DNA from: Nguyenibacter vanlangensis
GTDB taxonomy: Bacteria > Pseudomonadota > Alphaproteobacteria > Acetobacterales > Acetobacteraceae
Direction: 5' to 3'
DNA: 33,713 nucleotides
Assembly (NCBI RefSeq): GCF_013376155.1
Contig: NZ_JABXXP010000006.1
Location: forward strand, 1-33,713
Below, in pieces: positions 4,884-29,698 of this stretch. The notes beneath the pieces were generated by a model. That model saw only the letters and a list, made by a program, of their open reading frames with translations. It ran no database searches and was not told where the DNA came from. How positions within the stretch are numbered: the stretch's first letter is position 1; every line of letters starts with the position of its first letter. Both the position numbers and the translations under genes were made by a program.

Positions 4884-4894
4884 AAACCAAGTGT

Positions 4895-5400: not shown

Positions 5401-6015
5401 ATGAACATTCAAAAAAAAAACAACGTCTGCTCGCCGGTCCGACTGTTTGACAATCCCTGGCTCGAACGACTGACTTTCATTTCGTTTACGACTTTCCTGG
5501 CCGTATGGTTGCCGATCGTGTTGACGGTCTGCATCGGCGCAATATGGCATGCACGCTCCATGTCATCGTTTATCGCGCTCGGCCTTCTCGGGCTGATGAC
5601 ATGGTTTTTGTTCGAATATTGCGTGCATCGTTTTCTTTTTCATTTCAAAGCCAGAACTCCAAAAGGAAAAACGTTCATATTCCTAGTGCATGGCAACCAC
5701 CACGCCCAACCGAACCACCCGTTGCGAAGCCTGATGCCCTTCGGCGCCTCGCTTCCCCTGGCCGTGGTCCTTGGAGCGCTGGTCGTCGGAGCTGCCGGTC
5801 TGGAACACGGGCTCGATTTCCTGTCAGGTTTCCTGGCGGGCTATGTCTGTTATGACGTGACGCACTACGCATGCCATCATTTCAAGGCTCAGAACAAGAT
5901 CTTCATGATGATCAAGCGTCATCATTTGCTTCATCATTATCAAGACCCAGACATGAATCACGCGATTTCACTGCCCATTCTGGATAAGATATTCTTCACG
6001 CTTCATAAAAAATAA
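5401..6015 (+). CDS. Fatty acid hydroxylase superfamily (FA2H/Scs7-like) membrane enzyme
   Basis: This is a di-iron membrane hydroxylase. Its histidine boxes are HRFLFH (76-81), HGNHH (97-101), HYACHH (155-160) and HHLLHH (174-179), in the order and spacing of the PF04116 superfamily. The text YDVTHY...HH and HHxxHH resembles eukaryotic fatty-acid 2-hydroxylase (FA2H/Scs7) more than sterol desaturases. Membrane segments lie near residues 25-48, 56-72 and 115-150. A role in 2-hydroxylating acyl chains of sphingolipids or lipid A is plausible, because acetic acid bacteria make 2-hydroxy fatty acids; this is inference. ATG 5401 is preferred; a GGAG lies 14 bases upstream, and an in-frame TTG at 5389 is the alternative. 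An A10 run occupies codons 4-7, and gain or loss of one A would end translation early. Confidence 0.82.
   Translation: MNIQKKNNVCSPVRLFDNPWLERLTFISFTTFLAVWLPIVLTVCIGAIWHARSMSSFIALGLLGLMTWFLFEYCVHRFLFHFKARTPKGKTFIFLVHGNHHAQPNHPLRSLMPFGASLPLAVVLGALVVGAAGLEHGLDFLSGFLAGYVCYDVTHYACHHFKAQNKIFMMIKRHHLLHHYQDPDMNHAISLPILDKIFFTLHKK
5411..5420 (+). repeat. A10 homopolymer tract within codons 4-7 of the hydroxylase
   Basis: Ten consecutive A bases follow ATGAACATTC. Deleting one A leads to TGA at what is now 5481-5483 (codon 28 of the shortened frame). Adding one A leads to TGA after CCGACTGTT. Both were read by hand. The tract is therefore positioned like a phase-variation switch. Confidence 0.85.
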
Positions 6016-6053
6016 ATAGAAACCACGACGCAACGCCATAAGCCCACACATTG

Positions 6054-7235
6054 ATGACCACGAACGTCGACCCCGATTCTCTCATATGGCTCGACGGACG
6101 CAATTATGGCCGAAAAGGCGGAACCGGTGTTGCGACATACGCCACGGCGCTTGCCGACGCTCTTGTCGCGATGAACATGCCCCCGTCCATCCTGCTGGAA
6201 CAGGAAGAACCTGCCCGCTCTTCCGGGCGTACGACGCCCCTGCCCCTTCTGCGGGCACTCCACGCACGACCGACCGTGCGGCGCCTCGGTCCCACGTCGC
6301 TGCTCAGCCGTGATCTATATCGAAGCGCCCATGTCCATTTCGGATTGCGCCGCCGTTTCATGCCACTGCGCACGCCACATCCGCCGCGAATGATCCATTG
6401 GACCTATCCCCTTCCTCTGCATTTGGAGGGGGCCCTGAACATAACCACCATCCATGACCTGATCCCTCTCACTCATCCGCACCTGACCGGCATCGACTCC
6501 AAGCGCTTCCGGCGGCTGATCAACGAAGCCGTCACACGGGCGGATGCGATCATTACGGTTTCGGAAACCGTCAGGCGGCAAATCATCGAACGGCTGGGCA
6601 CCTCTCCCGACAAAATCACAAATCTGTCTCAGCCCGTGGAATTTTCGACAGATCAATTGACCCAAATCGCCGGGGTCCCCCCGATCGCCGCGGACGGGGC
6701 GTTCATCTTTGTCGGACGCATTGAGGCGCGCAAGAATATCGACCGCCTGCTGAAGGCACATGCCCGGTCGAGAACGCGCACGCCGCTCATCCTGATCGGG
6801 CCCGATGGGGATGACGCTCCGGACCTGTCATCCCGTGCTCCGACAAGCACCGTCATTCGTATTCCATGGATTGACCGGATCGGTCTGCTGCGCACGCTCA
6901 TGGGGGCCAAGGCTCTTCTGTTCCCGTCCCTTGCGGAGGGCTTCGGCCTTCCTATCCTCGAAGCGATGGCGCTTGGCACGCCCGTCATGACGTCGCGGGG
7001 CGGAGCAACGGAGGAAATCGGGGGCGATGCCGCGCTGCTGGTCGATCCGTATGATATCGATGCCATGGCGGACGCAATCGCGCGGCTGGATACGCCCACG
7101 AAAGACGGCGGCCTGCCGCGGTCCCTGATCGCCAAGGGACATGCACGCCGCAGAGCGTTCTCTCGAGAGAATTTCCGCAACGCGCTCGGCACGTTCTATC
7201 GACAAATCGGCTTCGATCGCGATGCAGGCCAATGA
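6054..7235 (+). CDS. GT4-family glycosyltransferase
   Basis: This is a retaining GT-B glycosyltransferase that would transfer a sugar from a nucleotide donor to the growing surface polysaccharide at the cytoplasmic face. The N-terminal acceptor domain has the glycine-rich GGTGVATYATAL. The donor domain has FVGRIEARKNIDRLL and the E-x7-E motif in EGFGLPILEAMALGTP, followed by TSRGGATEEIGGDAALLVDP. There is no membrane segment. Length is 393 residues from the ATG at 6054; a TTG directly before it is a less likely start. It is a paralogue of the gene at 13312-14625, sharing HWTYPLP, HDL(I/V)PL and the terminal DPYD block. Sugar specificity cannot be read from the sequence. Confidence 0.88.
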   Translation: MTTNVDPDSLIWLDGRNYGRKGGTGVATYATALADALVAMNMPPSILLEQEEPARSSGRTTPLPLLRALHARPTVRRLGPTSLLSRDLYRSAHVHFGLRRRFMPLRTPHPPRMIHWTYPLPLHLEGALNITTIHDLIPLTHPHLTGIDSKRFRRLINEAVTRADAIITVSETVRRQIIERLGTSPDKITNLSQPVEFSTDQLTQIAGVPPIAADGAFIFVGRIEARKNIDRLLKAHARSRTRTPLILIGPDGDDAPDLSSRAPTSTVIRIPWIDRIGLLRTLMGAKALLFPSLAEGFGLPILEAMALGTPVMTSRGGATEEIGGDAALLVDPYDIDAMADAIARLDTPTKDGGLPRSLIAKGHARRRAFSRENFRNALGTFYRQIGFDRDAGQ

Positions 7236-7262
7236 ATTATTGATCAAACATGAGCCGTTTCG

Positions 7263-8708
7263 TCAGGCCATTCTACCCATCACCAAATCCAAGATCAGAC
7301 GATGCAGTTCCGCCGGGGTCAGCGCTTGTTCGCAAGGCTCCGCGCGGCGGCAATCCCCTCCGGAGCGCAGGACGACATACGGGGTGCCGCGCTCTTCGCC
7401 CGGAGAGAGCATTCCCCGGATAGACGGCCGGTGATCCCCAAAGAAAACCAGCAGATAGCTGCGCCCCGTCTTGTCCAATGCCGTCCGCAGTTCGTCCAGC
7501 ATCCGGTCGCTGTTCGCAAGATGGCCAAGATAGGACGCCAGCGATTCACGCGCGCTGCGTCCCGGCCACGGTCCATGATTTTCCATCGTGACGGCATAGA
7601 AGAAAGACGGTTCCGTGGCCGTCTCAACAAGATGGCTGAGATAAGCCGCCACCGCCCGATCTTCGGGATAGGGCATGGCCGGGGACGCTACGTGGGGAAA
7701 CGCCTCTCGTCCGGCGACCTGAGAAAAGCCGATCCACGGCATGAGCCGGTCGCGGCGATAGAACGAGAGCGCGTGAGGGTGCACGAAAAACGTCCGATAG
7801 CCCACTTTGCTCAATCTATAAGGGAGAGCATATGCACGATCCCGCATTGCCGTCAGAAACGGATCATAACGGCGGAAACCCAATTCTTCTTCTGACCGCC
7901 CGAACAGCAATCCATATTCGGTTCGCATCGTATAGGCGCCGAAGCCGCTGACCAGGAGGTCCCCCTGGAAATCCGCATCGCGCCGTGCCCGCTCAAGCCC
8001 CGGTAACCGCATCGCCCGGTCGACCGCCGGGATCGGCAACCTGGTTGGATCCGCAAAGGATTCACACTGCACGACCACCACGATCTCTGTCGATGGTCGC
8101 TGCCCATGGTCGGCATCGCCGTGTTTCCCGTCACCGGGCGACGCCATGTCGGCCTGCCCCAGCCAGCGTCGCCAATAAAGAAACAGTATCGCCGGCAATC
8201 CCATGCGCACGATATCGGCCCTGAGATCAGGGATCGGCGCAAGCTTCTCCTCGGGGATCAGGGCCAGCGCGACCACGGAGAGCAGGAAGACCGCCAGCCC
8301 CTCCAGATGCGGCCGAAGCGCAAGGTTTACGGCACGGATCAGCAGTGCCGCGCCGACCGGCAGGGCCAGCAGAAAACCCAGCTTTAAATAGCCGGGCAGA
8401 GCGAAGGCGTAGAATTGAGGCGCCTTCAGCAGGTTCAATCCCGCGACGATATCGGAGAAGACCACGGGCTCGCCCAACAGCGCAACCTTGATCCTTGAAC
8501 CGACCCGAACCGCGACGAGCAACAGAATGCTGACGGCGCTTCCGACCGAGGATGCCCCCGTCACCGCAAGTCCGGCCGACCAGAATATCGCGCAGATCAG
8601 GCAATCGATGATCAGCCGCCAAACCAAGAACCGTCCCGCCCTCAGGCGGGTCCCGAACAGCTCCACGAAACAGAATATGACGGCGGTACAAAAAAAAGCC
8701 AATGCCAT
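7263..8708 (-). CDS. LTA-synthase-like membrane sulfatase-fold enzyme (probable phosphoglycerol transferase)
   Basis: The N-terminal ~170 residues hold about five hydrophobic segments. The extracytoplasmic domain belongs to the alkaline phosphatase/sulfatase superfamily, close to LtaS and OpgB. Expected metal and catalytic residues are visible: Glu216 in VQCESF, a nucleophile candidate Thr260 in YTMRTEY (aligning with the catalytic Thr of LtaS), and Asp425-His426 in FFGDHRP. Such enzymes move glycerol phosphate (or phosphoethanolamine) from a phospholipid onto a glycan outside the inner membrane. The frame runs up to a TTG at 8885, but the ATG at 8708 is the first ATG and precedes the first membrane helix, giving 481 residues. 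A T8 run lies in codons 4-7. The gene is convergent with the GT4 gene and divergent from kpsC. The substrate is inferred from neighbouring glycerol-phosphate genes. Confidence 0.82.
   Translation of the reverse strand: MALAFFCTAVIFCFVELFGTRLRAGRFLVWRLIIDCLICAIFWSAGLAVTGASSVGSAVSILLLVAVRVGSRIKVALLGEPVVFSDIVAGLNLLKAPQFYAFALPGYLKLGFLLALPVGAALLIRAVNLALRPHLEGLAVFLLSVVALALIPEEKLAPIPDLRADIVRMGLPAILFLYWRRWLGQADMASPGDGKHGDADHGQRPSTEIVVVVQCESFADPTRLPIPAVDRAMRLPGLERARRDADFQGDLLVSGFGAYTMRTEYGLLFGRSEEELGFRRYDPFLTAMRDRAYALPYRLSKVGYRTFFVHPHALSFYRRDRLMPWIGFSQVAGREAFPHVASPAMPYPEDRAVAAYLSHLVETATEPSFFYAVTMENHGPWPGRSARESLASYLGHLANSDRMLDELRTALDKTGRSYLLVFFGDHRPSIRGMLSPGEERGTPYVVLRSGGDCRRAEPCEQALTPAELHRLILDLVMGRMA
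8690..8697 (-). repeat. Homopolymer tract (A8 on +, T8 in the coding strand) near the start of the phosphoglycerol transferase
   Basis: Eight identical bases fall in codons 4-7 after the chosen ATG at 8708 (reading ALAFFC). As in the hydroxylase gene, slippage here would shift the frame at the very start of the protein. Confidence 0.75.
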
Positions 8709-8789
8709 CAGATCATATCCACGAAGTTGACGTAACGAAATTCTTGCATTTTTATTTTTCTGCGATGACTGCCATACATAAAACTGTCC

Positions 8790-8795
8790 TATAAT
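8790..8795 (+). promoter_or_regulatory. Consensus -10 box TATAAT upstream of kpsC
   Basis: A perfect TATAAT lies in the 188-base divergent gap between the phosphoglycerol transferase gene and kpsC, about 100 bases before the kpsC start. No good -35 box is found at 16-18 bases upstream, so an activator or another sigma determinant may be needed. This is motif evidence only. Confidence 0.35.
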
Positions 8796-8896
8796 AATTC
8801 CGGTCGCAGGTCGACTGATGGGCCGGGGCTTGCATTCGTGGCGGCTTGGGCCGATCCTGATTCGAATATGACCCGCACGGCGCAAAGCGAAAAACG

Positions 8897-10678
8897 ATGA
8901 TCCCCCTTCCGTCCGGGGCGAACATGGCGTTGTCAGTCCTCTATCCGCGCGAAGGCTTTCTCCGTGCGCCGCCTTTCACTGCGAACGTGCCTCCGCTCTC
9001 AGTACCCTGTCACACGGGCCCCGAAGCCGATTCGGTCAGCGTCGTGCCGCCGGAGCTCGCCGCGACGATCTGCCAGGCCCGGATCGGCGGCAGTTTCTGG
9101 GCCCCTCGCCCTTCGTTCGGCCGCCCGATCATCCTGGCACTGTGCTCCCGCGTTTCGGCGCAAGCCGCAGAACCGTTCGTAAGCGGCCTTATGCGCCGCT
9201 TCCCGGCGCAGGCACTCCTGCTGGTGACCGCGGCGGCCAACCATGGCGCGCGCCGTCTTGCGCGACGGACCGGCATCGCCGAAATCCTGCTGCCCGCCGA
9301 CCCGCACGGCCTTCTGGATCACGCGGAAGAAATCCATCAACTGGGTCCGGGGGATATCGCCATCCTCGGCGCGCTGCGCGGGCTGCCCACCCGCTGGTAT
9401 GCACGCCCCCAGGATACGGACGGACATGTCCTGACCAGCCAAGACATCCGAACGGGCCTTGCCCAAGCCTGTCGCTATGTCGACCCCTTCACCGGCATGC
9501 CGGCGACTCTGGCGGCGACGATCGATCTTCTGCTGCTTTGGAAAGATATTCTGACCCAGAATCGGAAGATCGCCCTGTGCGGCGGCATGTCGCTATGGAA
9601 ACGCCGGCGGATGGCCCGCTTCTTTTCGTCCGCGCCCGGGCATCCGCCATTCGGCAACCGTGTTTCCGCCGCCGTCAGGGCGTCTCTCGCCCATGGTGGC
9701 ACGCAAGCGATCGCGGCTTGGGCCACGCGTATTCCACATCGGCTGGAAACCACGATCCGCCGCGAGGAAGTGCCCCTTTGGCGCGTCGAGGACGGGTTTG
9801 TCCGTTCGGTGGGACTGGGCAGCGATCTCAGAACGCCCGCATCGATCATCCTGGATAAGCGCGGCATCTATTACGACCCGCGTCAGCCCAGCGATCTCGA
9901 GCATATCCTGGCCACCACGCTGTTCGACGATCGGATCAGGCAACGCGCGCGAACGATCATCGACCGTCTGATTCGTGATGGAATATCGAAATACGGGCGT
10001 AGCGCGGGTGGCGGCTCTCGCCCCGATTGGCCAGCGCAAACCAGCCGCACGGTGATTCTGGTACCGGGCCAGGTCGCCGACGATCTATCGGTCCGCTGCG
10101 GCGGCGGCGAGATCCAAGGGAACCTCGCGCTGCTTCAAGCCGTTCGGGAACGCAATCCCGCCGCATTCGTCATTTACCGACCGCATCCGGATGTCGATGC
10201 CGGACATAGGGAGGGACGACTGGACGACGCCATCATTCGCCGATATGCCGACCATGTCAGCCGCGGGGGAGCGATCACCGCGGCCGTGAGTCATGTCGAT
10301 GAAGTCCATACGCTGACGTCGCTTGCCGGTTTCGAGGCTCTGCTGCGCGGGGTCAAGGTCGTCACCTATGGCGTGCCCTTCTATGCCGGCTGGGGACTGA
10401 CGATCGACAGGGGGATTATTCCCGCCCGGCGGAACAGGACGCTGACAATCGAGGAACTCGCCGCGGGCACCCTGCTGATCTACCCGCGCTATCTGGACCC
10501 GGTGACGGAACTGCCGTGCCCCTTGGAGACGTTACTTTCTCGTCTCGGTGACGAAAAATTGTGGAGGCCGACCCCGCTGATGCGCGTACGCCGTTTGCAG
10601 GGACGCATGAAAACGCTGATCGCCGCGGGCCGACGGCGCCAAGCATATAAAAATCAAGGATCGGAACGGCCGGCATGA
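8897..10678 (+). CDS. kpsC: KpsC-like capsule Kdo transferase, apparently with one catalytic module
   Basis: KpsC extends the poly-Kdo linker that joins group 2 capsules to their lipid anchor. Residues ~200-590 match the linker and C-terminal module of E. coli KpsC as I remember it: YVDPFTG, LCGGMSLWKRR, WRVEDGFVRSVGLGSD (295-310), LDKRGIYYD, LVPGQVADD, YRPHPD (427-432), HTLTSLAGFEALL (471-483) and PFYAGWGLT. E. coli KpsC is about 675 residues with two such modules. Here the first ~190 residues contain no second EDGFxRS or FEALL copy, so the N-terminal module looks lost or replaced. The start is ATG 8897; ATG 8924 is an alternative. The stop overlaps the kpsS start (ATGA), so the pair is coupled. 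No Kdo biosynthesis genes are in the window. Confidence 0.88.
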   Translation: MIPLPSGANMALSVLYPREGFLRAPPFTANVPPLSVPCHTGPEADSVSVVPPELAATICQARIGGSFWAPRPSFGRPIILALCSRVSAQAAEPFVSGLMRRFPAQALLLVTAAANHGARRLARRTGIAEILLPADPHGLLDHAEEIHQLGPGDIAILGALRGLPTRWYARPQDTDGHVLTSQDIRTGLAQACRYVDPFTGMPATLAATIDLLLLWKDILTQNRKIALCGGMSLWKRRRMARFFSSAPGHPPFGNRVSAAVRASLAHGGTQAIAAWATRIPHRLETTIRREEVPLWRVEDGFVRSVGLGSDLRTPASIILDKRGIYYDPRQPSDLEHILATTLFDDRIRQRARTIIDRLIRDGISKYGRSAGGGSRPDWPAQTSRTVILVPGQVADDLSVRCGGGEIQGNLALLQAVRERNPAAFVIYRPHPDVDAGHREGRLDDAIIRRYADHVSRGGAITAAVSHVDEVHTLTSLAGFEALLRGVKVVTYGVPFYAGWGLTIDRGIIPARRNRTLTIEELAAGTLLIYPRYLDPVTELPCPLETLLSRLGDEKLWRPTPLMRVRRLQGRMKTLIAAGRRRQAYKNQGSERPA

Positions 10679-12000
10679 TGATATCGCGATCGACATCGGG
10701 CAAAAGCACGCCACGCCGCTTTCTGCTGCTTCAGGGTCTGATGGGGCCGCTGTTCCGCCGGATCGGCATTGCGCTACGGGCAGCGGGACACGAAGTCCAT
10801 AAAATAAATTTCAATGGCGGGGACAAGCTGTTCTGGCGCCTCGGCGGCGATATCGATTATCGCGGCGATCTCGGCCGCTGGCCGGATTTCGTAGCACAGG
10901 TCATCCACCGCCACAACATTACCGACGTGCTGCTGTTCGGCGATTGCCGTCCCCTACATCGCTCGGCCATCGCGGTCTGCGGCAGGCTGCATATTCCCGT
11001 CCATGTCTTTGAAGAAGGATATATCCGTCCGGACTGGGTTACCCTGGAACTCGGGGGGGTGAACGGGCATTCCACCCTGCCGCGCGATCCCGACTGGTAT
11101 CGCACGCAGGCAGCCTTACTGCCGCCGGCCCCCGTCAACAATCCGGTGCCGTCATCCTTCCGCCGCCGCGCATCCGAGGCGGTTGCCTATAACGCAGCCG
11201 ATATTCTGTCCCGCTGGTATTTCCGTCACTGGAACGACTATCGTCCCTGGCATCCCTGGCGCGAGGGAATCAGTTGGCTGCGCCGCCTGCGCCAGCGCGA
11301 CGCCGCCCAGGCCCGCACGGCCGAAACGATCGCGGAAATCGATCGTTCGGGACGGCCCCATATGTTGTTTCCGCTTCAGTTGGACGCGGATGCGCAGGTG
11401 CGCCTGCATTCGCCGTTTCGCAACATGGAAGAGGCTATCCGAGAGGTCATCGGCAGCTTCGCGGCGCATGCGCCGGCGGATCTGTGGCTGCTGGTCAAAG
11501 AGCATCCGCTGGATAACGGGATGCGCGACTGGCGTGCGCTGGTAACCGACCTCGCGGCCCGTGCCGGGGTTGGCGACCGGGTGCGCTATCTCGAAACCGG
11601 CGACATCGCGCTGCTGGTCCGGCCGGCCAAGGGCGTGGTCACGATCAACAGCACGACCGGCACCCTGGCCCTGGCGTCGAACGTTCCCGTCATCACCCTG
11701 GGCGAAGCGGTCTATGATATACGCGGCGTGACCCATCAGGGCAGTCTGGCGGAATTCTGGAACAATCCTGAACAGCCGGACGCGGCGACCTTCGCCGCGT
11801 TCTGCCGCGTTCTGATCGATCGATGCCTGATAGCCGGCGGATTCTTCTCGGAAAAGGCGTTGTCCACGGTGGTCGCGGGCGCCGTCGAGCGGATCGAGCG
11901 GGCCACATACCGCACGCGCGCCGAAGGCCTCTCCAGCGCCGTCCCGCTGGAATCAGAAACGGCCCGCATCGAACGTGTCGTCATTCGCAGCGCTGGCTGA
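10675..12000 (+). CDS. kpsS: KpsS-like capsule polysaccharide linker Kdo transferase
   Basis: KpsS adds the first beta-Kdo to phosphatidylglycerol in the linker of ABC-exported capsules, on the cytoplasmic side. Family hallmarks visible are FLLLQGLMGPLFRRI near the N-terminus, INFNGGDKLFW, VLLFGDCRPLHR, the conserved EEGYIRPDWVTLE (from residue 113), LLVKEHPLD and, near the C-terminus, TINSTTGTLAL with TLGEAVYD. The 441-residue length is slightly above the E. coli protein. It starts on the ATG overlapping the kpsC stop. Together with kpsC it indicates that the final glycan is built on a Kdo-lipid acceptor, assuming the linker chemistry is the canonical one. Confidence 0.9.
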   Translation: MMISRSTSGKSTPRRFLLLQGLMGPLFRRIGIALRAAGHEVHKINFNGGDKLFWRLGGDIDYRGDLGRWPDFVAQVIHRHNITDVLLFGDCRPLHRSAIAVCGRLHIPVHVFEEGYIRPDWVTLELGGVNGHSTLPRDPDWYRTQAALLPPAPVNNPVPSSFRRRASEAVAYNAADILSRWYFRHWNDYRPWHPWREGISWLRRLRQRDAAQARTAETIAEIDRSGRPHMLFPLQLDADAQVRLHSPFRNMEEAIREVIGSFAAHAPADLWLLVKEHPLDNGMRDWRALVTDLAARAGVGDRVRYLETGDIALLVRPAKGVVTINSTTGTLALASNVPVITLGEAVYDIRGVTHQGSLAEFWNNPEQPDAATFAAFCRVLIDRCLIAGGFFSEKALSTVVAGAVERIERATYRTRAEGLSSAVPLESETARIERVVIRSAG

Positions 12001-12022
12001 GCGTACCGGATCGTTGCACGCC

Positions 12023-13291: not shown

Positions 13292-13311
13292 CTTTGCGAA
13301 ATTGATATGTG

Positions 13312-14625: not shown

Positions 14626-14663
14626 CTTTCCTCCCTGGAACCGAGCGGTTAGAAACAAACGCG

Positions 14664-15890: not shown

Positions 15891-16291
15891 AAATATTCAT
15901 TATTATTTGAATTACGTCGCGATCAGGCGATTCTGCCTGATCGCTTGACGACGCCCGGCAAAATAACAATTTGAAACACTTCCGCTGAATCGATGTTCAG
16001 TGGCGCCGTAACGTCAAATGGCCCTTAATGTTACAAATTATTGCATTTCCTCTGGGGGGTTTAAAATTGGGATAAATACTTCTTTGAATAATAAAGTGAT
16101 TTTAATTTTTTAACACTCAAATCAAAAAATAATTACTTATTTTATTACTCCACGTGAGCACATACAAATTATTATTAATGAACATTCCACAAATTACTTC
16201 AATAAATCTTGTTGTTGCCTGACCGGATAAAATATGTGACAAATTTATTAAGATTTTGAGACATCCACATACGGGAACGGATTAAGGAGTT
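15891..16291. other. AT-rich non-coding gap between the export gene and tagD
   Basis: About 400 bases hold no convincing gene. Two hairpins lie just after the export gene (15919-15944 and 15982-16003). Beyond them is strongly AT-rich DNA with TTA/AAT runs up to the AAGGAG ribosome site at about 16284. The base composition changes here from GC-rich to AT-rich and stays low through the next genes. A promoter for tagD is expected, but I could not find a convincing -35/-10 pair. Confidence 0.6.
15919..15944 (+). terminator. Strong hairpin after the export lipoprotein gene
   Basis: A perfect 10-bp inverted repeat, GCGATCAGGC with GCCTGATCGC around a GATTCT loop, lies 28 bases after the stop codon. 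No T-run follows, so it may terminate weakly or protect the 3' end. A second, 8-bp hairpin is found at 15982-16003. Confidence 0.5.
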
Positions 16292-16729: not shown

Positions 16730-16851
16730 GCGAAAAAACCGCAAAATATTCCAGATACATATTTTTAGACATCATTTATATGATACCACAAAATCATACA
16801 AATATATCCTGTAAAAGAAAAATTTTACAATAGACATCGAGGTAAAGGCCT

Positions 16852-18132: not shown

Positions 18133-18138
18133 CGAGTC
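18123..18138 (+). terminator. Small hairpin over the stop codon of the TagF-like gene
   Basis: GACTCG and CGAGTC form a 6-bp stem around ATAA, which contains the TAA stop (18130-18132). No T-run follows. The remaining 250 bases up to the convergent gene show nothing that I can support. Confidence 0.3.
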
Positions 18139-18392
18139 GTTCGTGGAATGGACAATTGACGCAATGACATTGATAAGATGGTCGATTTTCGTTACTTCGA
18201 TTCGAATCTTGGAACGGCTCGCATCAAGAGATCAAATAACTCGAAAATCAGCAACAGCTTCAGTTACTCCAGTGCATCGCCCTTGAAGAGCCTTGGGCGG
18301 GCTTCTTGCTCACCCGCTATGATACATGACCTTCTCAGCCTACCGTCATCCAGTTTTTCGCTATTGCTTCTACCAATCCGAAATATCCAACA

Positions 18393-20741: not shown

Positions 20742-20766
20742 GTGTCCTCCGACATGTGTCCTCCGA
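20739..20766 (-). repeat. 14-bp tandem duplication of ribosome site plus start codon
   Basis: CATGTGTCCTCCGA occurs twice in a row (20739-20752 and 20753-20766). On the minus strand this reads TCGGAGGACACATG twice, so Shine-Dalgarno and ATG are both doubled. The outer ATG (20755) opens a 16-codon frame ending in TGA at 20707-20705, which overlaps an internal ATG of the TPR-GT gene. Confidence 0.85.
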
Positions 20767-20783
20767 TAACGTTTCGATGGAGC

Positions 20784-22601: not shown

Positions 22602-22724
22602 TATGTCGCCTCGCGCTCATTTAACCTAAAAGAGAACGGCCTAAAAGAGAGGATATGTGATAACGCCCAAGATAAGCCCGTGTCATTTTCGCCCTTCTCA
22701 CGCTACCGGAAGGACGCTGCAACA

Positions 22725-24182
22725 CTATCTTGATGTCCCCTCGCCTGCCGCTCCTCCCCAGGCCGGGATGAAATGTACCTTTCTTTTCGCGTCACGTAGA
22801 ACCAGACACCCGCTTGCGCCCGGCAACGAGCCGCATTGGGAAGTGTCGGCGGTCCAGATCAGCGGTAAGTCGACACGTCTAGCAAGGAACGTCGCCGCAT
22901 CATCAGACAGAACATGCTCCTTCCCATGCATGGGGCCATTGTAATTGCCTTCAAAATCATCGCCAATCAGCATGATTTCAGATGCTGAGGACAACGCGTT
23001 GAAACCATAACCACCAGTTCCACCTCGTCCGTTCTGGCGGAATTGCGTGCCCGAATAAGTCTGTCGCATCATAGAGACATCATGCACGCCATCTCCCCTA
23101 GCATTGAAGATCGTCCCGCCCGAAAAAACAAGATGACCCCGCACCGCCTTGTCGAGCTGGAGATTAGAGGTGGCCGAGGACGCGATCCAACTGCCTGCAA
23201 ATGAAATATAGAGGTCGCCTGCATTACCCTGCGTGTCGTTAACCTCAACACCTGCGCCTGACGCGGAACTGTCAATGAAGCAACCCGAGGCAAAGAATAG
23301 TTCGCGGTTTGTTACCCTAACGAGGGCGTTATCTATCAAAACATTTGTGCCGTTACCAATGATGTCCGTGCCGGGCCCACAGACGAACCCACCCAATCCA
23401 CCACCGATATGCACACCAATTCTCGGTACAATACGGGAATCAGTAGGCCCGATCTTCCAACCCAACAGCGAAAAATCCGCCGAGCCGAGCCTTCCTCCAT
23501 TAATACGGAAAGCGTCATTCTGACCGACGGCATAGCTTTGCCCCCAAGTCGCAATAAAATCCACCTCATCGAACCACACACCGTTCCAAAGTTTTCCATT
23601 GCCCTCCTGGCCATCAAGAACGATGTTTCCGACAGCCGAGCGCACCATCCCCCGCACATGCAATGCGGTTCCCGCACTCATCCTTGTATTCGACGCTATG
23701 CGGAAGTCGTGTAACGACCAGTTCTTCTGCGGGCTGACCCCATCTCCGATCGTCAAAAGATCAATCTGCGAGTCATGACCCATATAGAGAAAAGTCGTTG
23801 CATACGGCCCCGCTCCATGCAGATCGACATGATTAGCCTGCACCCCACCCGGATTGGCTAGCGGAGCAGTAAACACACACACGCCTGCTGGCGCCTCGAG
23901 TTCGACATCCGCCGGCATCCCAGCCGCATTCGCCAGCCATTTGTTGATCGCTTTTGTATCGTCCGTCACTCCATCACATTTCGCACCATAAGACAGGAGC
24001 GAAATCTGACGATTCACGTTCAAGCCTGTCGCGGTACCGCCATTGATCATCGGTGCCGTAAGACGGCTGTGCGCTAGCACTTGACCAAGGCCCTCCTTGT
24101 CAGACATTGTCCCCTGCTGTGCATAAGCCGAGGTAATCAGCATACCGCCCAATAGTCCCAAAATGGAAAATCTGAGTGCCAC
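22725..24182 (-). CDS. Secreted right-handed beta-helix protein (pectate-lyase-3-like)
   Basis: The 485-residue protein begins with a signal peptide (LLGGMLITSAYAQQ, cleavage after AYA). Near residue 62 is SLLSYGAKCDGVTDDTKAIN, the classic entry of the Pectate_lyase_3/GH28-related beta-helix family (PF12708). Gly/Asn-rich repeats with short strands follow for ~350 residues. Such proteins in capsule or exopolysaccharide loci, and in phage tail spikes, often bind or cut polysaccharide. Periplasmic or extracellular trimming of the locus product is a plausible role, but no catalytic residues can be named. GTG 24182 is preferred because GGAG lies 7 bases before it. It is on minus, ahead of the two large GT genes (124-base gap), so all three may be co-transcribed. 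Confidence 0.78.
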   Translation of the reverse strand: MALRFSILGLLGGMLITSAYAQQGTMSDKEGLGQVLAHSRLTAPMINGGTATGLNVNRQISLLSYGAKCDGVTDDTKAINKWLANAAGMPADVELEAPAGVCVFTAPLANPGGVQANHVDLHGAGPYATTFLYMGHDSQIDLLTIGDGVSPQKNWSLHDFRIASNTRMSAGTALHVRGMVRSAVGNIVLDGQEGNGKLWNGVWFDEVDFIATWGQSYAVGQNDAFRINGGRLGSADFSLLGWKIGPTDSRIVPRIGVHIGGGLGGFVCGPGTDIIGNGTNVLIDNALVRVTNRELFFASGCFIDSSASGAGVEVNDTQGNAGDLYISFAGSWIASSATSNLQLDKAVRGHLVFSGGTIFNARGDGVHDVSMMRQTYSGTQFRQNGRGGTGGYGFNALSSASEIMLIGDDFEGNYNGPMHGKEHVLSDDAATFLARRVDLPLIWTADTSQCGSLPGASGCLVLRDAKRKVHFIPAWGGAAGEGTSR

Positions 24183-24407
24183 TGAAAGTCTCCAGGAACA
24201 CAGGCGGTCCCATTTGATCGTCCAGGTTGAGAGATAGTTACTGGCTTTCTAACTCATAGGGGAAGGCGGTAACAATCTTATTCCGTCAGTGGCATATGGT
24301 CGAGAACCGAGTATGGACGAAGCCATCCTTATCCCGACGAGATTTCTAAAAAAATCAGGACGATTCAGTTTTTTTGAGCGGACATTGTAGAATGGAGGCA
24401 CATCCTG

Positions 24408-25319
24408 GTGAACGACGATCTTTCTATCAAAGGCGCCTCCTCCTCCACGCGGCCACCCCGGGCGTCCGGCGCAGGGCGCCGCGCACGGTCCCTTCACAAA
24501 AACCATGGCCCGATCCTCGCGCTTCTCGACAAACTTACGGGAGACGATGGCGAAGCGACGCTCGGCAGACTGATGCAGCAACCCGAATGCATCGATTCCC
24601 TGGCTGCTGAAATTGCCTCCGGCGCCTCCATTGAAAGAATTCGCAAGCGCGCCCTCACTCTCGACACGATGATTTCCGAATTGGTGGAAGCCGATTTCGC
24701 TTATGTCGGGCTGCCGAAAGAAGCACGCGACTGCGATTTTCGGACTGGCTTCGAGACCTATCTCCGTCCTGTTCTTGGCAAACGTGCGCAAGGCTTCGCG
24801 GCAATCTTTGAGAGATTGGACAGGCATACTCGCCCGTTCATCGTTGAAACTGGCAGTCTCCGCATCCCTGACAACTGGGAAGGGGACGGACAGAGCACAT
24901 TTCAATTCGACTGGTATGCCCGCACACGCCATGGCTCCGTCTTCACGATAGATATTAACCCGGCCAGTATCGACAGCGCTCGCAGGGCATGTAGCGGCAC
25001 CACCAGCACGATACTCAATGATTCCGTCGCGGCACTCCATGCCCTTGGTTCGGTCGCCGGCCGGCCGGCGGCGCTGATCTATCTCGATTCATTCGATCTC
25101 GACCTTGAAAATCCGGTACCAAGCGCAGTGCATCATGCGATGGAGGTCATGGCGGCCCGGCGCCTGATCGGTGAAGGGACTATCATCTGCGTAGATGATT
25201 TCGACGTACCTCCCCTCGGTCAAGGGGGCAAGGGGCTGATCGTAGACCAATTCATGTCCTCCATCGGAGCCGAAGTGGTATATTCGGGATATCAGAAAGT
25301 ATGGCAATTGTCCGGATAA
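24408..25319 (+). CDS. Class I SAM-dependent methyltransferase-like protein
   Basis: Residues ~140-300 resemble a Rossmann methyltransferase of the Methyltransf_24 type. FIVETGSLR with GDGQST fits the SAM-binding loop, FTIDINPASIDSAR the acidic end of strand 2, ALIYLDSFDLD the strand-4 region, and GTIICVDDFDVPP a later acidic motif. The N-terminal ~130 residues are helical and not recognised. In polysaccharide loci such proteins often methylate sugars or cap chains. GTG 24408 has GGAGG 9 bases upstream. The gene is divergent from the beta-helix gene, and a 225-base gap with A7 and T7 runs separates them. It precedes the phosphomannomutase gene by 128 bases. Assignment to a methyltransferase is reasonable, but the substrate is unknown. 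Confidence 0.72.
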   Translation: MNDDLSIKGASSSTRPPRASGAGRRARSLHKNHGPILALLDKLTGDDGEATLGRLMQQPECIDSLAAEIASGASIERIRKRALTLDTMISELVEADFAYVGLPKEARDCDFRTGFETYLRPVLGKRAQGFAAIFERLDRHTRPFIVETGSLRIPDNWEGDGQSTFQFDWYARTRHGSVFTIDINPASIDSARRACSGTTSTILNDSVAALHALGSVAGRPAALIYLDSFDLDLENPVPSAVHHAMEVMAARRLIGEGTIICVDDFDVPPLGQGGKGLIVDQFMSSIGAEVVYSGYQKVWQLSG

Positions 25320-25447
25320 CAACCATAACAAACTCTCCGGTCTGCGGCGCAAGATTTTTTCGTTTCCATGCCGGGATCAGAAGCGGCCTTTCCTCTTGGC
25401 CTAAAAATGCCGACTTAACTGCGACTTTTTGAAAGATATCCCGCCTT

Positions 25448-26926
25448 ATGAAAATAGCCGAGTGGATGAAGCAATCCGGCGTTGCCTTCGGGACCAGTGG
25501 CGCTCGCGGTCTTGTTGCTGCCATGACAGATGCCGTGTGCTTTGCCTATACACAGGGATATCTGCGCCATCTTGCGGCACTTGGTGAATTTTCGCCCGGC
25601 ACCCCGGTTGCAATTGCGGGAGATCTGCGTCCCAGTACGCCACGTATCGTGCGGGCTTGCGTCGCCGCCATCCGCTATGCGGGGGGCGAGCCGGTCTTCT
25701 GCGGTTTCGTCCCGACGCCCGCGCTGTGCCTGTATGCCTTCGCACGCGGATGGCCTTCGTTGATGGTCACCGGCAGCCATATCCCGGCAGATCGCAACGG
25801 CATCAAGTTCAACCGAACGCGCGGCGAATTCCTCAAATCCGATGAGGCCGCCATGCGTACGCAGGATGCCATGCTGCCCGACGGGTGGTTCGACGCGAAC
25901 GGCGCATTGGTCGGGTCCGTCGATCTGCCCGCCATGACCGATGTCGTCCCTGATTACATAGCGCGCTATCGCGACTTTTTCGGCTCCGGTGCGCTGTCGG
26001 GCTTGACGTTAGGCGTCTATCAGCATTCCGCCGTTGGTCGCGACGTGTTAGTACAAATCGTCGAGGCCCTTGGCGGCGAGGCTGTCCCGCTGGGCCGGAC
26101 AGACGATTTCATCCCGGTCGATACCGAAGCCGTTCGTCCGGAAGATGGCATGCTGGCACGTGAATGGGCATGCGACGGCACGCTGGATGCCATCATGACC
26201 ACGGATGGCGATTCCGATCGCCCCCTTCTGGCCGATCGCAATGGATATTGGCTCCGCGGCGATGTGCTCGGCATCCTTGCAGCACGTTTCCTTGGAGCGG
26301 CGGCTGTCACGACACCCGTCAGCAGCAATACGGCATTGGAAAAATCCGGCTTTGCCGTCAATGTCCGCCGTACCCGCATCGGCTCCCCCTTTGTCGTGGC
26401 GGCAATGACCGACGCCGCCGAAGCCGGGCTGGTTCCTTCTGTCGGTTACGAAGCCAATGGCGGCTTTCTACTGGCAACCGATATAAAGCAAGGCAATCAG
26501 ACACTTCGCGCATTGCCGACACGCGATGCAGTACTACCGATGCTTTGTGCCCTTGTGGCCGCGCATCGGCACGGTCAGGATCTAGCCGCGCTCGTCAACA
26601 CCCTTCCGCCGCGTTTTACGCTCAGCGACCGCCTTGTGGATATGCCAACCGCCCAAAGCCAGGCCGAAATCGAAAAGCTCAGCCGCCATCCGGCGCAGGG
26701 GGCAGCGGAACTGGGATTCGTTACCGTTTGCGGCGATCTTGCTCATACCGACGAAACGGATGGACTTCGCATGACTTTTGCAAGTGGCGAAATCATCCAT
26801 TTGCGCCCGTCCGGCAATGCGCCGGAGCTACGCGTCTATGTCGAAGCCGATACTCCGGAACGTGCCGCGAAACTGTTAAAGGTAGGAATCCCGGCCGTCA
26901 GTATCTGGAAAAATCTCGCAAATTGA
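25448..26926 (+). CDS. Phosphomannomutase / phosphoglucomutase family enzyme
   Basis: The enzyme interconverts hexose 6- and 1-phosphate, normally mannose for GDP-mannose supply. All four alpha-D-phosphohexomutase signatures are visible. FGTSGARG is near the N-terminus. The phosphoserine loop is TGSHIPADRNGIK with Ser110. The metal loop is DGDSDRP, with Asp253, Asp255 and Asp257. The sugar loop is GYEANGGF, and RPSGNAPELRVYVEA is the C-terminal phosphate-binding site. The serine loop has IPADRNG where many homologues read NPxxYNG; this is a subgroup feature. The 492-residue length is slightly long. The ribosome site is weak. Location inside the locus suggests a dedicated supply of mannose-derived donors (mannose, fucose, rhamnose-like). 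Which hexose is used cannot be decided here. Confidence 0.88.
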   Translation: MKIAEWMKQSGVAFGTSGARGLVAAMTDAVCFAYTQGYLRHLAALGEFSPGTPVAIAGDLRPSTPRIVRACVAAIRYAGGEPVFCGFVPTPALCLYAFARGWPSLMVTGSHIPADRNGIKFNRTRGEFLKSDEAAMRTQDAMLPDGWFDANGALVGSVDLPAMTDVVPDYIARYRDFFGSGALSGLTLGVYQHSAVGRDVLVQIVEALGGEAVPLGRTDDFIPVDTEAVRPEDGMLAREWACDGTLDAIMTTDGDSDRPLLADRNGYWLRGDVLGILAARFLGAAAVTTPVSSNTALEKSGFAVNVRRTRIGSPFVVAAMTDAAEAGLVPSVGYEANGGFLLATDIKQGNQTLRALPTRDAVLPMLCALVAAHRHGQDLAALVNTLPPRFTLSDRLVDMPTAQSQAEIEKLSRHPAQGAAELGFVTVCGDLAHTDETDGLRMTFASGEIIHLRPSGNAPELRVYVEADTPERAAKLLKVGIPAVSIWKNLAN

Positions 26927-26941
26927 TTTCTTGAAAAGATC

Positions 26942-26968
26942 GGGGTCAGCCCGTGATAAACTGACCCC
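26942..26968. terminator. Bidirectional hairpin between the phosphomannomutase gene and kpsT
   Basis: GGGGTCAG and CTGACCCC form a perfect 8-bp stem around an 11-base loop, between convergent genes. On the minus strand it is followed by GATCTTTTC, a short T-run, so it may end kpsEMT transcription. On plus, ATTCTTATG follows. Confidence 0.55.
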
Positions 26969-26983
26969 ATTCTTATGCAACAG

Positions 26984-27011
26984 ATTGATTTGACTATATT
27001 GATTTGACTAT
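26984..27011. repeat. 14-bp tandem repeat at the kpsT stop codon
   Basis: ATTGATTTGACTAT occurs twice in direct succession (26984-26997 and 26998-27011). The second copy contains the kpsT stop (TAG on minus, 27010-27008). Confidence 0.8.
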
Positions 27012-27676
27012 AGCGCCTCGTATCGCTCGACCGCATCAGCGACACTTGCGCACATGTTCAGATGGCGATCATGCAACAATGCCCCCGTATCGCAATGCTC
27101 CCGGATAAATCCCATGTCATGGGACACGATGATCAGCGACCGGTCAGACCGTTTTCCAAACAACTCGTCCTGACAACGTTGCAGAAAACGGGCATCCCCT
27201 ACCATGATCACTTCATCGATCAGATAACAATCAAACTCGATGACAATCGAAAGCGCGAAGGCCAGGCGTGCACGCATGCCGGAAGAATAGGTCTTAACCG
27301 GTTCGGCCAGTTGTTTTCCCAACTGGGCAAAATCGTCGACGAAGACACGGGTACTGACATAATCCAAGCCATATATCCGACAGATGAACCGCAGATTATC
27401 CAGCCCCGACAGGCTGCCCTGGAAAGCACCGCCGAACGCCAAGGGCCAAGATACGCTCATTGTTCGTTCGACACGGCCCGATGTCGCAATCTCAACACCG
27501 CCGATAATCTTGATCAGCGTCGATTTTCCCGCCCCGTTGCGCCCGACGATGCCGAGTTTGCGCCCTTTTTCGATCGTGAAATTGATGCGCTCCAACACCT
27601 GCCGCACGCCGCGATGAACGGGAAACGTCTTGCAGATATCCACACATCGAACCATGGGGCGAGCGATATGCGCCAT
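27008..27676 (-). CDS. kpsT: Capsule ABC transporter ATP-binding protein KpsT
   Basis: This is the nucleotide-binding subunit that powers export of lipid-linked capsule through KpsM. From ATG 27676 it has 222 residues, the normal KpsT length. Walker A is GRNGAGKST at 45-53. The ABC signature appears as YSSGMRARL, and Walker B reads CYLIDEVIMVGD. The switch histidine is in IIVSHDM. ATG 27676 lies 2 bases after the kpsM stop (TGATATG), which supports this start; an upstream in-frame codon at 27706 would overlap kpsM by 29 bases. It is the last gene of the kpsE-kpsM-kpsT operon on minus. Confidence 0.95.
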   Translation of the reverse strand: MAHIARPMVRCVDICKTFPVHRGVRQVLERINFTIEKGRKLGIVGRNGAGKSTLIKIIGGVEIATSGRVERTMSVSWPLAFGGAFQGSLSGLDNLRFICRIYGLDYVSTRVFVDDFAQLGKQLAEPVKTYSSGMRARLAFALSIVIEFDCYLIDEVIMVGDARFLQRCQDELFGKRSDRSLIIVSHDMGFIREHCDTGALLHDRHLNMCASVADAVERYEAL

Positions 27677-27677
27677 A

Positions 27678-28508
27678 TCATTGAACCACGATATGGCGGC
27701 GCGCACGCAAGGTCAGGGACAAACCGATCAAAAGAAGAACGAACGTAATCCAGCCATCATAAAAAATATCGTAATGCGCATGGGCGCTGTCACCGAACTG
27801 CCCTTCTCGAATCATCTCGATATTGTCAACGCTCGGTGACAGCAAAATGGCGCTCTGCCACCGAGGCGGCAACCAATCGACCATCATGAAGGCACCGGAG
27901 AAAGGAAGAGAAAGATAGGAAAAAATGTTAATACTTTTCTCAATCAGTTCAGACATTTCACTTAGGGCCGCGACGAGCAATGCCGTTGCAAGACTGAACA
28001 AACAATGGAAGCCCAATCCAAGATAGAGCATCCCGTAATTTTTTGGCGGTTCCATATAACCCAGAAACCATGCTCCCAGAAAAACCAGGAATCCCGCACC
28101 AAGCGCGCCCATGATTTCCAGAATTGTACGAGCCAATATGATATCAAGCGGCGTCACCTGCCGGTGGAACAGCAGGCTGCCATTCGATTGGAACGCAAAG
28201 ACCGCCCGGCCAAGACAGTGCCGCCACATGGTCAGCGGTACATAACCCGTCAGGACGATCGCCGTCGTCGGCAGGTTATGTTCGTGCGAATTCCGTATCG
28301 CGGTCCAGGCGATCGCCACCCCCGCACAGAACAGGATCGGCTCTCCGATCACCCATAGGAAACCGATATTTTCTCGCCCATATCGCGTGTGCATCTCGCG
28401 AAACAGCAGGGCGCCGATCACCCGGCACTGAAGCATGAACAATCCGAGCAGCGACGACGATCGGCGATCGTGCTGGGGCGAGGCCGAAACCTGACGTTGC
28501 GCCGCCAT
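27678..28508 (-). CDS. kpsM: Capsule ABC transporter permease KpsM
   Basis: KpsM is the inner-membrane channel for capsule export. The 276-residue protein has about six membrane segments (near residues 45-70, 80-100, 125-150, 160-185, 195-215 and 248-266). Typical ABC-2 polysaccharide permease text is present: REMHTRYGRENIGFLWVIGEPIL near the N-terminus, a TGYVPLTMWRH loop, and SPSVDNIEMIREGQFG before the last helix. ATG 28508 overlaps the kpsE stop (TGATG); a GTG directly upstream at 28511 is also possible. The stop is 2 bases before kpsT, so the three genes are tightly coupled. Confidence 0.93.
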   Translation of the reverse strand: MAAQRQVSASPQHDRRSSSLLGLFMLQCRVIGALLFREMHTRYGRENIGFLWVIGEPILFCAGVAIAWTAIRNSHEHNLPTTAIVLTGYVPLTMWRHCLGRAVFAFQSNGSLLFHRQVTPLDIILARTILEIMGALGAGFLVFLGAWFLGYMEPPKNYGMLYLGLGFHCLFSLATALLVAALSEMSELIEKSINIFSYLSLPFSGAFMMVDWLPPRWQSAILLSPSVDNIEMIREGQFGDSAHAHYDIFYDGWITFVLLLIGLSLTLRARRHIVVQ

Positions 28509-29698
28509 CACGTAATCTGGTGCTCGCGCGCGCCGCTGATCAGTAGCAGGCCCATTGCATACACCCCCAATCCCGTGGCGAACACGATGAGTATATCCGC
28601 GACCGAATGCGGATATTCCGGATAATCCGGCAGATCCGGCTTTGCGATCTCATCGAGATATAATTGCTGGCGGTCGGCCTGCGCCCTGGCGGTTTGCAGA
28701 CTGACGGTCGCCGCCGCCAGTTCGCGTTCCGCGATCTCTCGCTGGACCGTCAGATCGTCATAGGCCGTGATCTTCGGCACCAGCGACGTATCAGGGCCGG
28801 TAATGCCCTTGTTGGCCCGCGCGATCTCGTCCTGCAGCGCCTCGACCCGATGCTGATACACCGGCAACAGCGGGCTGTTTGGCGCCGTCCTGGTCACCTG
28901 CGCGATCTGCAGCTTGGCCGCCACCAGCATGGCCTTGAGCTGATCGATGTCCTGCAACATGGGGACCGACTGCTTCAACGGGTCCAGAAGCCCTTCCTTG
29001 TTGCGATAGGCCGCGAATGCCAGTTCGATACGCCGGATCTTGTCTTCCGCCTCGGTCACCTCTTTTTGGGACGACGCGATCATGTTCCGACGCTGCCGCT
29101 CGTTCATCTCATTCACCAAGCGTTCGCCGGCGCCGATCAGCGCGCGGCCGATCCGCTGGGAATCCTGGGCCGAGAACGTGCGGACCGTAAGGTTCGAGAT
29201 ACCGGTTTCGGTGTCGAGTTCGGCAATCACATGATTCTGATAATATCTGAAAAAATGCTCGAACGTCCTACCGCGGTAAAACGCGGGGAAACGTGCGATG
29301 AAATCCGCATCCGGACGGTCGAAGGCCGCGCGAAGGTTTTGCGTCTCGATCAGCGTGCGCGCCGCGTCGCGCGACATCATGTAGGTCTGAACGGCGTACG
29401 TGTCCTCATTGCCGCCGCCACCGCCTGACCCCACCTGCTGAAGCAGGCTGCCGAACATGCTCGGCGCCTGCACCCCCGGCCCCCGCACTACGAAATAGGC
29501 ATGGGACACATACTGAGGTGAGGCGATAAAGGCATAATAGACAGCCGCCAGGACCGTGGGCAGTACGACCACCAGATTGAGCCCGGGGCGCTTGCATACC
29601 CAATCGGCCAGTTTGCCGACCGGTGATACCTGACGTATCGCGCGTTGCGGTACCGCCTCACGCGCTGCAATATTGGCTTCGACCATACCCGCGTTCAT
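28508..29698 (-). CDS. kpsE: Capsule export inner-membrane protein KpsE (PCP family)
   Basis: KpsE links the KpsM/T transporter to the outer-membrane channel across the periplasm. It has an N-terminal membrane helix near residues 40-60, a periplasmic body with long coiled-coil helices (roughly 195-360; QKEVTEAEDKIRRIE, ARANKG, EIAERELAAA) and a C-terminal helix near 370-390. YPEYPHSVADIL before the last helix is the family's proline-rich motif. The frame is open up to a TTG at 29833, but the ATG at 29698 has GGAAGG suitably upstream and gives 396 residues, close to the usual ~380; ATG 29806 is a longer option. A short Gly5 stretch follows the first periplasmic segment. It is the first gene of the export operon. 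Confidence 0.92.
   Translation of the reverse strand: MNAGMVEANIAAREAVPQRAIRQVSPVGKLADWVCKRPGLNLVVVLPTVLAAVYYAFIASPQYVSHAYFVVRGPGVQAPSMFGSLLQQVGSGGGGGNEDTYAVQTYMMSRDAARTLIETQNLRAAFDRPDADFIARFPAFYRGRTFEHFFRYYQNHVIAELDTETGISNLTVRTFSAQDSQRIGRALIGAGERLVNEMNERQRRNMIASSQKEVTEAEDKIRRIELAFAAYRNKEGLLDPLKQSVPMLQDIDQLKAMLVAAKLQIAQVTRTAPNSPLLPVYQHRVEALQDEIARANKGITGPDTSLVPKITAYDDLTVQREIAERELAAATVSLQTARAQADRQQLYLDEIAKPDLPDYPEYPHSVADILIVFATGLGVYAMGLLLISGAREHQIT

Follow-up and report, generated by a model that had tools for sequence, protein, structure and literature searches.

The 33,713-nucleotide stretch analyzed here (the window) is a whole contig of the incomplete genome of Nguyenibacter vanlangensis, a member of the Acetobacteraceae (3.9 Mb, 1307 contigs, 87.6% complete), and it contains a real and complete ABC-transporter-dependent (group 2) capsule locus, a form that is present in many Acetobacteraceae. 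The locus extends from about 5389 to 29833, between a leucyl-tRNA synthetase (LeuRS) gene and a CHAD-domain gene. At its center is a type-specific cassette that includes a tagD gene followed by a gene, starting at 16852, for a 426-amino-acid (aa) protein that may be distantly related to TagF (the 16852 protein); a gene related to lipoteichoic acid synthase (LtaS) and GacH belongs to the part of the locus that is shared between capsule types. The reading that we favor, tentatively and with a probability of about 0.43, is that GT4 family glycosyltransferases of the cassette make the capsule backbone, that the TagD/TagF-like pair adds a glycerol-3-phosphate side group, and that the LtaS-like enzyme performs a separate step.

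An initial annotation of the window had proposed a capsule anchored on 3-deoxy-D-manno-octulosonic acid (Kdo) with glycerol phosphate in its backbone or as side groups, pointing to a TagD-like cytidylyltransferase, a TagF-like transferase, an LtaS-like enzyme, kpsC- and kpsS-like genes, five GT4 genes, and kpsE, kpsM and kpsT with an outer-membrane export protein. Profile searches bear out all of these identifications other than the TagF-like one, which stands in part. The capsule proposal is plausible, as a group 2 capsule with a CDP-glycerol pathway in its cassette, and the glycerol phosphate can be placed more narrowly, probably as a side group. What does not hold is the evidence for glycerol phosphate drawn from the LtaS-like gene and from three of the five GT4 genes, since these belong to arms that are common to different capsule types.

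A group 2 capsule locus with an exchangeable cassette

From left to right, with (-) denoting the minus strand, the locus contains genes for a fatty acid hydroxylase, GT4a, the LtaS-like protein (-), KpsC, KpsS, GT4b, GT4c, KpsD, TagD, the 16852 protein, a GT4 enzyme with tetratricopeptide repeats (TPR-GT4, -), GT4e (-), a pectate-lyase-like protein (-), a 303-aa open reading frame (ORF), a phosphoglucomutase/phosphomannomutase, KpsT (-), KpsM (-) and KpsE (-). Its assignment to group 2 follows from the presence of KpsC and KpsS Kdo transferases with KpsM, KpsT, KpsE and an outer-membrane export protein, and from an exchangeable region flanked by conserved arms. In the window, the proteins that match the NCBIfam models for KpsS, KpsM and the KpsE family all score below the curated cut-offs. 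The genes that define the two arms and the cassette are as follows, where G388 is a complete genome of the same species.

8897..10678, plus strand: KpsC-like Kdo transferase with one Capsule_synth module (PF05159, E 3.8e-42; PDB 6mgd, E 6.4e-66)
10675..12000, plus strand: KpsS-like Kdo transferase (PF05159, E 3.8e-76; NF050054, E 6.6e-83, below cut-off)
11975..13291, plus strand: GT4 glycosyltransferase b, shared arm (Pfam; blastn against G388)
13309..14625, plus strand: GT4 glycosyltransferase c, shared arm (Pfam; blastn against G388)
14622..15890, plus strand: KpsD/Wza-type polysaccharide export protein (Poly_export, E 2e-17; SLBB)
15889..27015, no strand: type-specific cassette, without counterpart at the corresponding place in G388 (blastn)
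27008..27706, minus strand: KpsT-like ATPase, shared arm (best NCBIfam match TagH, below cut-off; 90% in G388)
27678..28511, minus strand: KpsM-like permease, shared arm (Pfam; NCBIfam below cut-off; match in G388)
28508..29833, minus strand: KpsE-like inner-membrane protein, shared arm (TIGR01010, E 4e-78, below cut-off)

The boundaries of the cassette are evident from the blastn comparison with G388, in which positions 1–15888 are 98% identical and positions 27016–33713 are 90% identical, with no colinear match between them. Both breaks are at most 10 bases from the stop codons of kpsD and kpsT, and at the left one, at 15888, the identity stops inside the kpsD stop codon. In G388 the corresponding gap holds 18.6 kb, with dTDP-rhamnose-type and insertion-sequence genes (named from their translations) and genes for TPR-GT2 and GT2/GT4 enzymes. 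Because G388 has the same arms and a different cassette, only 15889–27015 is type-specific. The shared arms contain the LtaS-like gene and, of the five GT4 genes, those at 6051, 11975 and 13309, but not those at 18393 and 20784, both on the minus strand. Transposase-like genes, read from translations, lie near both ends of the G388 cassette (L041–L043), and are a possible route of cassette exchange.

The KpsT-like ATPase matches the NCBIfam model for the teichoic acid exporter subunit TagH at 127 bits (cut-off 320). We rejected this match as a sign of a teichoic-acid-type polymer because the same ATPase, 90% identical, is present in G388 with a different cassette. Within the genus, all 14 genomes searched, including the window's own, have a kpsE match, which in one case is weak (26% identity); 12 further loci of the genus were compared, three of them short owing to contig ends (G123, G277 and G364).

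The organization resembles the group 2 loci of E. coli and Neisseria in having genes of the KpsC, KpsS, KpsD, KpsE, KpsM and KpsT types and an exchangeable central region, but differs in that export genes are at both ends of the cassette and that LtaS-like, hydroxylase and three GT4 genes are in the shared arms. The KpsC-like protein is also different, with about 230 residues lacking an above-cut-off Pfam match followed by a single Capsule_synth module, whereas E. coli KpsC has two such modules; the Kdo linker may for this reason differ from that of E. coli.

The tagD-tagF pair and its distribution

The two genes of the pair are adjacent at the left end of the cassette.

16292..16729, plus strand: TagD, predicted CTP:glycerol-3-phosphate cytidylyltransferase (TIGR01518; PDB 1coz)
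16852..18132, plus strand: candidate distant TagF-like transferase with a C-terminal DUF4214, 426 aa (profile comparison and motifs)

The predicted identity of TagD is clear and well supported: it matches PDB 1coz (GCT) at E 2.8e-43 and TIGR01518 at 152.7 bits, the latter below a cut-off of 165.4 that its relative in genome G286 passes at 165.5. When 16 genomes were searched with TIGR01518, scores of 152–165 bits were obtained only in the three that carry the TagF-like protein, these being the window's own (G000), ESL0709 (G061) and G286. The remaining matches, to which the second ones in G061 and G286 belong, score 44–52 bits and belong to frames of 367–1111 aa, mostly about 500 aa, which we read as of the HldE type; five of the 16 genomes have no match.

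Full-length relatives of the 16852 protein are similarly rare, being present in only three of 397 sampled Acetobacteraceae genomes, which are the same three carriers. Although 14 of the 397 genomes give a match, in 11 of these it covers the DUF4214 end only, and the search found no relative in the same-species genome G388. The window's own aside, no relative was found outside the family among 385 genomes of the class, 180 genomes of the phylum, plasmids and viral contigs. Of two pattern scans of genome contigs, the first returned nothing and the second ESL0709 alone. The protein is kept across three genera at 40–43% identity, and in all three carriers TagD is encoded immediately upstream, with 66% (G061) and 57% (G286) identity to that of the window.

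In two of the three carriers the pair stands alone, and the cassette of G388 is different. No capsule gene was recognized within about 15 kb on either side of the pair in G061 or G286, where the capsule genes are on another contig; its neighbors are major facilitator superfamily and 5-aminolevulinate-synthase-like genes in G061 (named partly from Pfam and otherwise from translations), and carotenoid-type and copper-ATPase-like genes in G286 (named from translations). In each of the three carriers the pair is lower in G+C content than its flanks (45 versus 62–65%, 41 versus 48–52%, and 35 versus 54–55%). The pair is a rare two-gene unit and appears to move independently from one genome to another. 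KpsC/KpsS-type genes are present in each of the three carriers, compared with 73 of the 200 family genomes sampled, although this involves only three cases.

Is the 16852 protein TagF-like?

The only Pfam match of the 16852 protein is to DUF4214 at its C terminus (E 1e-6), with no match to glycosyltransferase or TPR families; there is no NCBIfam match at E <=0.01 and no PDB sequence match at E <=1. The TagF-type family PF04464 itself is found in 10 of the 200 family genomes at E 0.001, six of them above the cut-off, and a search of the window's own genome gave no match. Weak relatives of PF04464, in frames of 460–522 aa, are present in four Acetobacteraceae genomes, ESL0709 among them (L078, L081, L083 and L084).

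The evidence for a relationship comes from comparing profiles. The three full-length members were aligned with six of the seven strong PF04464 matches (one short fragment was dropped), and with eleven of the 13 weaker ones, split into two sets. A local comparison with the six strong domains scores 34.8 over 258 columns, and none of 101 controls (100 column shuffles and one reversal) reaches this, the best being 26.0. Comparison with a set of seven weaker relatives scores 25.4, with one of 101 controls higher, while those with the second weak set, KpsS and GT4 are noise, being reached by 51, 41 and 31 of 101 controls, respectively. The alignment matches the motifs HG, GYPK/GxPR, HP, and GDxSS/TDYSS, and residues H90-G91, Y137-P138-K139, H189-P190, D227-x-S229-S230 and E234 are conserved in all three members. 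In PMC11666461, the key residues of CgoT include H479, G480, T481, P482, R542, A573, R607, H609, S647, S648 and D652; by our own mapping to that text, the window protein keeps both histidines and both serines.

Taken together, the comparison, its controls and the motifs make a fair but weak case that the 16852 protein is a distant, single-domain TagF-like protein, albeit not a member of PF04464 by the curated test, and it is to this extent that the initial identification stands. A motif pattern that hit two of the three members, none of 497 ORFs and none of 600 shuffles was written after the fact and hence was not used.

An LtaS/GacH-like gene linked to capsule loci

7263..8885, minus strand: LtaS/GacH-like predicted phosphoglycerol transferase, shared arm (Sulfatase, PF00884, E 7.7e-20; about five membrane helices predicted from hydropathy, then the catalytic domain)

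Two solved sequences match this protein at E <=0.01, a phosphoglycerol transferase (5u9z, E 2.7e-5) and GacH (5wcx, E 2.8e-5). Residues E275, T319, D484 and H485, which we take to include the catalytic Thr and metal ligands, are present in all 22 aligned LtaS-like sequences (the window's and those of 21 of 29 other loci). As in GacH, LtaS and OpgB, a Sulfatase-family domain with these presumed catalytic residues follows membrane helices. GacH decorates a streptococcal wall polysaccharide, whereas in many capsule loci of the Acetobacteraceae the LtaS-like gene is arranged divergently to kpsC.

Relatives of the LtaS-like protein are present in 39 of 200 family genomes, and Capsule_synth genes in 73 of the same 200 (both at E 1e-10). 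Counted over the two lists, the LtaS-like gene occurs in 37 of the 73 genomes with Capsule_synth and in two of the 127 without (G118 and G177); Fisher's test gives p = 1.4e-17, a value that ignores relatedness. The neighborhoods of the best 30 of 40 match places, with flanks of at most 1.5 kb (L098–L127, the window's locus included), show the same association. kpsC is adjacent and divergent in 19 of the 30, the window's among them, and a further four have kpsS on the same strand, so that the gene lies by kpsC or kpsS in 23; another four adjoin a different gene of the capsule locus, and three (L120, L124 and L125) adjoin none. On plasmid NZ_CP126995.1 of Acidisoma sp. PAMC 29798, the gene for an 'LTA synthase family protein' is placed between those for two 'capsular biosynthesis proteins' and the exporter genes. 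We considered the LtaS-like gene as a marker of a glycerol-phosphate-type capsule and rejected it: because it lies beside kpsC or kpsS in so many loci, and in both capsule types of the species, it is uninformative as to type. It may instead perform a separate phosphoglycerol step outside the inner membrane.

Proposed position of the glycerol phosphate and alternative explanations

Two glycosyltransferases of the cassette bear on how the glycerol phosphate would be placed.

18393..20741, minus strand: TPR and GT4 glycosyltransferase, cassette (Pfam; 73% homologue in G300)
20784..22601, minus strand: GT4 glycosyltransferase e, cassette (Pfam; 82% homologue in G300)

From what is known of these families, KpsS and KpsC would build a Kdo linker on lipid, and the polymer would be extended in the cytoplasm and exported by KpsM, KpsT, KpsE and KpsD, with the 15889–27015 cassette presumably setting the capsule type. 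The backbone would most likely be made by the two cassette GT4 enzymes (18393 and 20784). TagD is predicted to make CDP-glycerol, which the 16852 protein would most likely use in the cytoplasm to attach sn-glycerol-3-phosphate side groups to sugars of the polymer as it grows. The LtaS/GacH-like enzyme, probably acting outside the inner membrane, would obtain its phosphoglycerol (sn-glycerol-1-phosphate) from phosphatidylglycerol, irrespective of capsule type.

We favor a side group over a teichoic-acid-like backbone because G388 has another cassette, because the genus mate G300 has both GT4 enzymes without the pair, and because two copies of the pair stand alone; the content of G300 and the stand-alone copies favor an add-on decorating unit. 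Beside its exporter, G300 encodes homologues of GT4e (82%), TPR-GT4 (73%) and the pectate-lyase-like protein (52%), and searches for 16852 relatives and with TIGR01518 found neither tagF nor tagD there. Next to the same two glycosyltransferases is a GT34-like gene (PF05637, E 4.8e-4, below cut-off), and the N terminus of its product is the best match to the DUF4214 hidden Markov model (HMM) outside the TagF-like proteins, although a weak one (E 0.06, versus 0.36 for the best shuffle), such that a DUF4214-like region on this protein is only suggestive.

If the pair instead made the backbone, the TagF-like protein and one cassette GT4 would form a split TagF-like/GT-B polymerase, giving a poly(glycosylglycerol phosphate). 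This is unlikely, though it is the most credible of the alternatives. The loci of the TagF-like polymerases CslB, Cps1B, Cps3D and Cps7D, which are KpsC/KpsS loci, likewise have a TagD-type enzyme and a TagF-like protein in their type-specific region; according to PMC5974469 these polymerases join TagF-like with GT-A or GT-B domains, mostly with TPR, in one polypeptide, and the domains function in trans. The cassette does have TagD, a TagF-like protein and a TPR-GT4, and a 30% match to TPR-GT4 is present in the capsule region of G286. However, the 16852 protein is a much diverged single-domain protein with DUF4214 as its only recognizable domain and the GT4 enzymes are separate polypeptides; moreover, G300 retains both GT4 enzymes without the pair, the other two carriers hold the pair away from their capsule loci, and the 40-kb capsule region of G061 has no place that best matches TPR-GT4 or GT4e. 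Somewhat less probable is that the protein acts as a transition transferase, priming the polymer by adding glycerol-3-phosphate to the Kdo linker, in which case the polymer itself would be free of glycerol phosphate. The model for this is CpsA of Actinobacillus pleuropneumoniae, described in PMC11666461 as a PF04464 primer that works with the LicD-type CpsC and is encoded in a type-specific region with a CDP-glycerol-making enzyme. The 16852 protein is likewise single-domain and encoded beside TagD in such a region. Yet it lacks a PF04464 match, a primer would not usually be expected to stand alone away from capsule loci, and no LicD-family partner (CpsC, PF04991) was found among the 20 proteins of 5389–32018 (E <=0.01) or in the 24408 ORF, the rest of the genome not having been searched for LicD.

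That the pair acts on a different surface glycan, for instance lipopolysaccharide, and is in the capsule cassette by chance would account for its separation from capsule genes in two of the three genomes, but we consider it improbable; in the window the pair is inside a cassette with ends at most 10 bases from the kpsD and kpsT stop codons, and all carriers have KpsC/KpsS-type genes, few as these cases are. Least probable is that the 16852 protein is an unrelated or decayed protein. It has no family match outside DUF4214, HMM searches with TagF-family models are not significant and the HHalign probability is low, and an AlphaFold2 model made from two sequences is uninformative (predicted local distance difference test score 41, predicted template modeling score 0.26). 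Against this, it is conserved in three genera with the motif residues retained, it is beside TagD in every carrier, and its profile signal exceeds the shuffled controls in the comparison with the TagF family but not in those with KpsS or GT4. A variation on the side-group reading, about as doubtful as a priming role, is that there are two sources of glycerol phosphate of opposite stereochemistry, with a standing LtaS/GacH-like enzyme adding sn-glycerol-1-phosphate outside and the mobile pair adding sn-glycerol-3-phosphate inside, and that DUF4214 would dock exchangeable decorating enzymes at the capsule; the basis for the docking module is the N terminus of the G300 GT34-like protein.

Several observations weigh against the TagD/TagF-like pair adding a side group. 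At the level of the protein, none of the three members has a Pfam match beyond DUF4214 at E <=10, and the PF04464 cut-off is not reached; HMMs from TagF-family members (three models) give the 16852 protein E values of 0.9–43, which is noise against a background of 497 other ORFs and 600 shuffles. HHalign assigns a probability of 26% to the three-sequence comparison, and 9.8% in an earlier alignment setting in which the two weak PF04464 sets, compared with these six domains as well, reach 98% and 84%; the score in that setting was 19.9, compared with 20.0 for a PF04464-versus-GT4 control, and the local setting with shuffled controls is the one cited above. In our mapping to PMC11666461, Arg542 is replaced by Lys and Asp652 by Glu, and Arg607 is not kept. 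TagF-family membership depends on one profile comparison made with three sequences. As to the pair, the GT4 genes that adjoin it in the window are also G+C-poor (49%), so that low G+C content does not single it out within the cassette. As to placement, the case for a side group draws on a single genus mate and on two copies that stand alone: in G300 an enzyme not recognized here could do the same work, the stand-alone pairs could act on a different glycan, and the capsule region of G286 does contain the 30% match to TPR-GT4.

Other features of the locus

The remaining genes of the locus are one at its left edge, the adjoining GT4 gene, and three in the right part of the cassette.

5389..6015, plus strand: fatty acid hydroxylase/sterol desaturase family protein, shared arm, locus edge (PF04116, E 4e-14; 99% identical in G388)
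6051..7235, plus strand: GT4 glycosyltransferase a, shared arm (Pfam; 98% in G388)
22725..24182, minus strand: pectate-lyase-like protein of the cassette, predicted to be exported (hydrophobic N terminus; PF12708 at E 2.8e-5, under the Pfam cut-off; 52% homologue in G300)
24408..25319, plus strand: 303-aa ORF, no Pfam match (in the genus mate G042 a 68% homologue lies about 7 kb away from the capsule exporter)
25448..26926, plus strand: phosphoglucomutase/phosphomannomutase family protein (PF02878/79/80 and PF00408)

The hydroxylase/sterol desaturase gene beside GT4a (5389–7235) marks an edge of the capsule locus, and a sterol desaturase family gene is at the same place on the Acidisoma plasmid, where it is adjoined by short-chain dehydrogenase/reductase and class I/II aminotransferase genes (L128, 9598–13528). 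Together the hydroxylase, dehydrogenase/reductase and aminotransferase genes could point to a capsule-linked pathway for sphingoid-type lipids. Pectate-lyase-like genes of the beta-helix type recur in capsule cassettes of the genus (window 22725–24182; L070, 11643–13349; L061, 1873–3363), the one in G042 being named from its translation alone. In the capsule locus of G286 (L076–L077) several genes give split matches, reflecting either assembly error or decay.

Significance

Capsules with glycerol phosphate have been described in Actinobacillus, Neisseria and pathogens related to them. Literature searches found no description of one in the Acetobacteraceae, in agreement with the initial annotation, but a kps capsule is not in itself new in the family, as the Asaia genome paper names WcbC, KpsE, KpsS and KpsC (PMC6317953). 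The searches also found nothing joining the LTA synthase family with capsules in the Alphaproteobacteria, phosphoglycerol transferases with KpsC capsules, or DUF4214 with glycosyltransferases, and no paper linking at least three of poly-Kdo, KpsC, a single domain and the Alphaproteobacteria.

If the 16852 protein is indeed TagF-like, the TagF family would extend to a branch that Pfam misses, and a self-contained tagD-tagF pair, found in a capsule cassette and alone, would show how glycerol-phosphate decoration spreads. The link between the LtaS-like gene and capsule genes is the more general point and possibly matters more than the pair, as its distribution suggests that roughly half of the family members with a capsule use phosphoglycerol transfer in assembling it.

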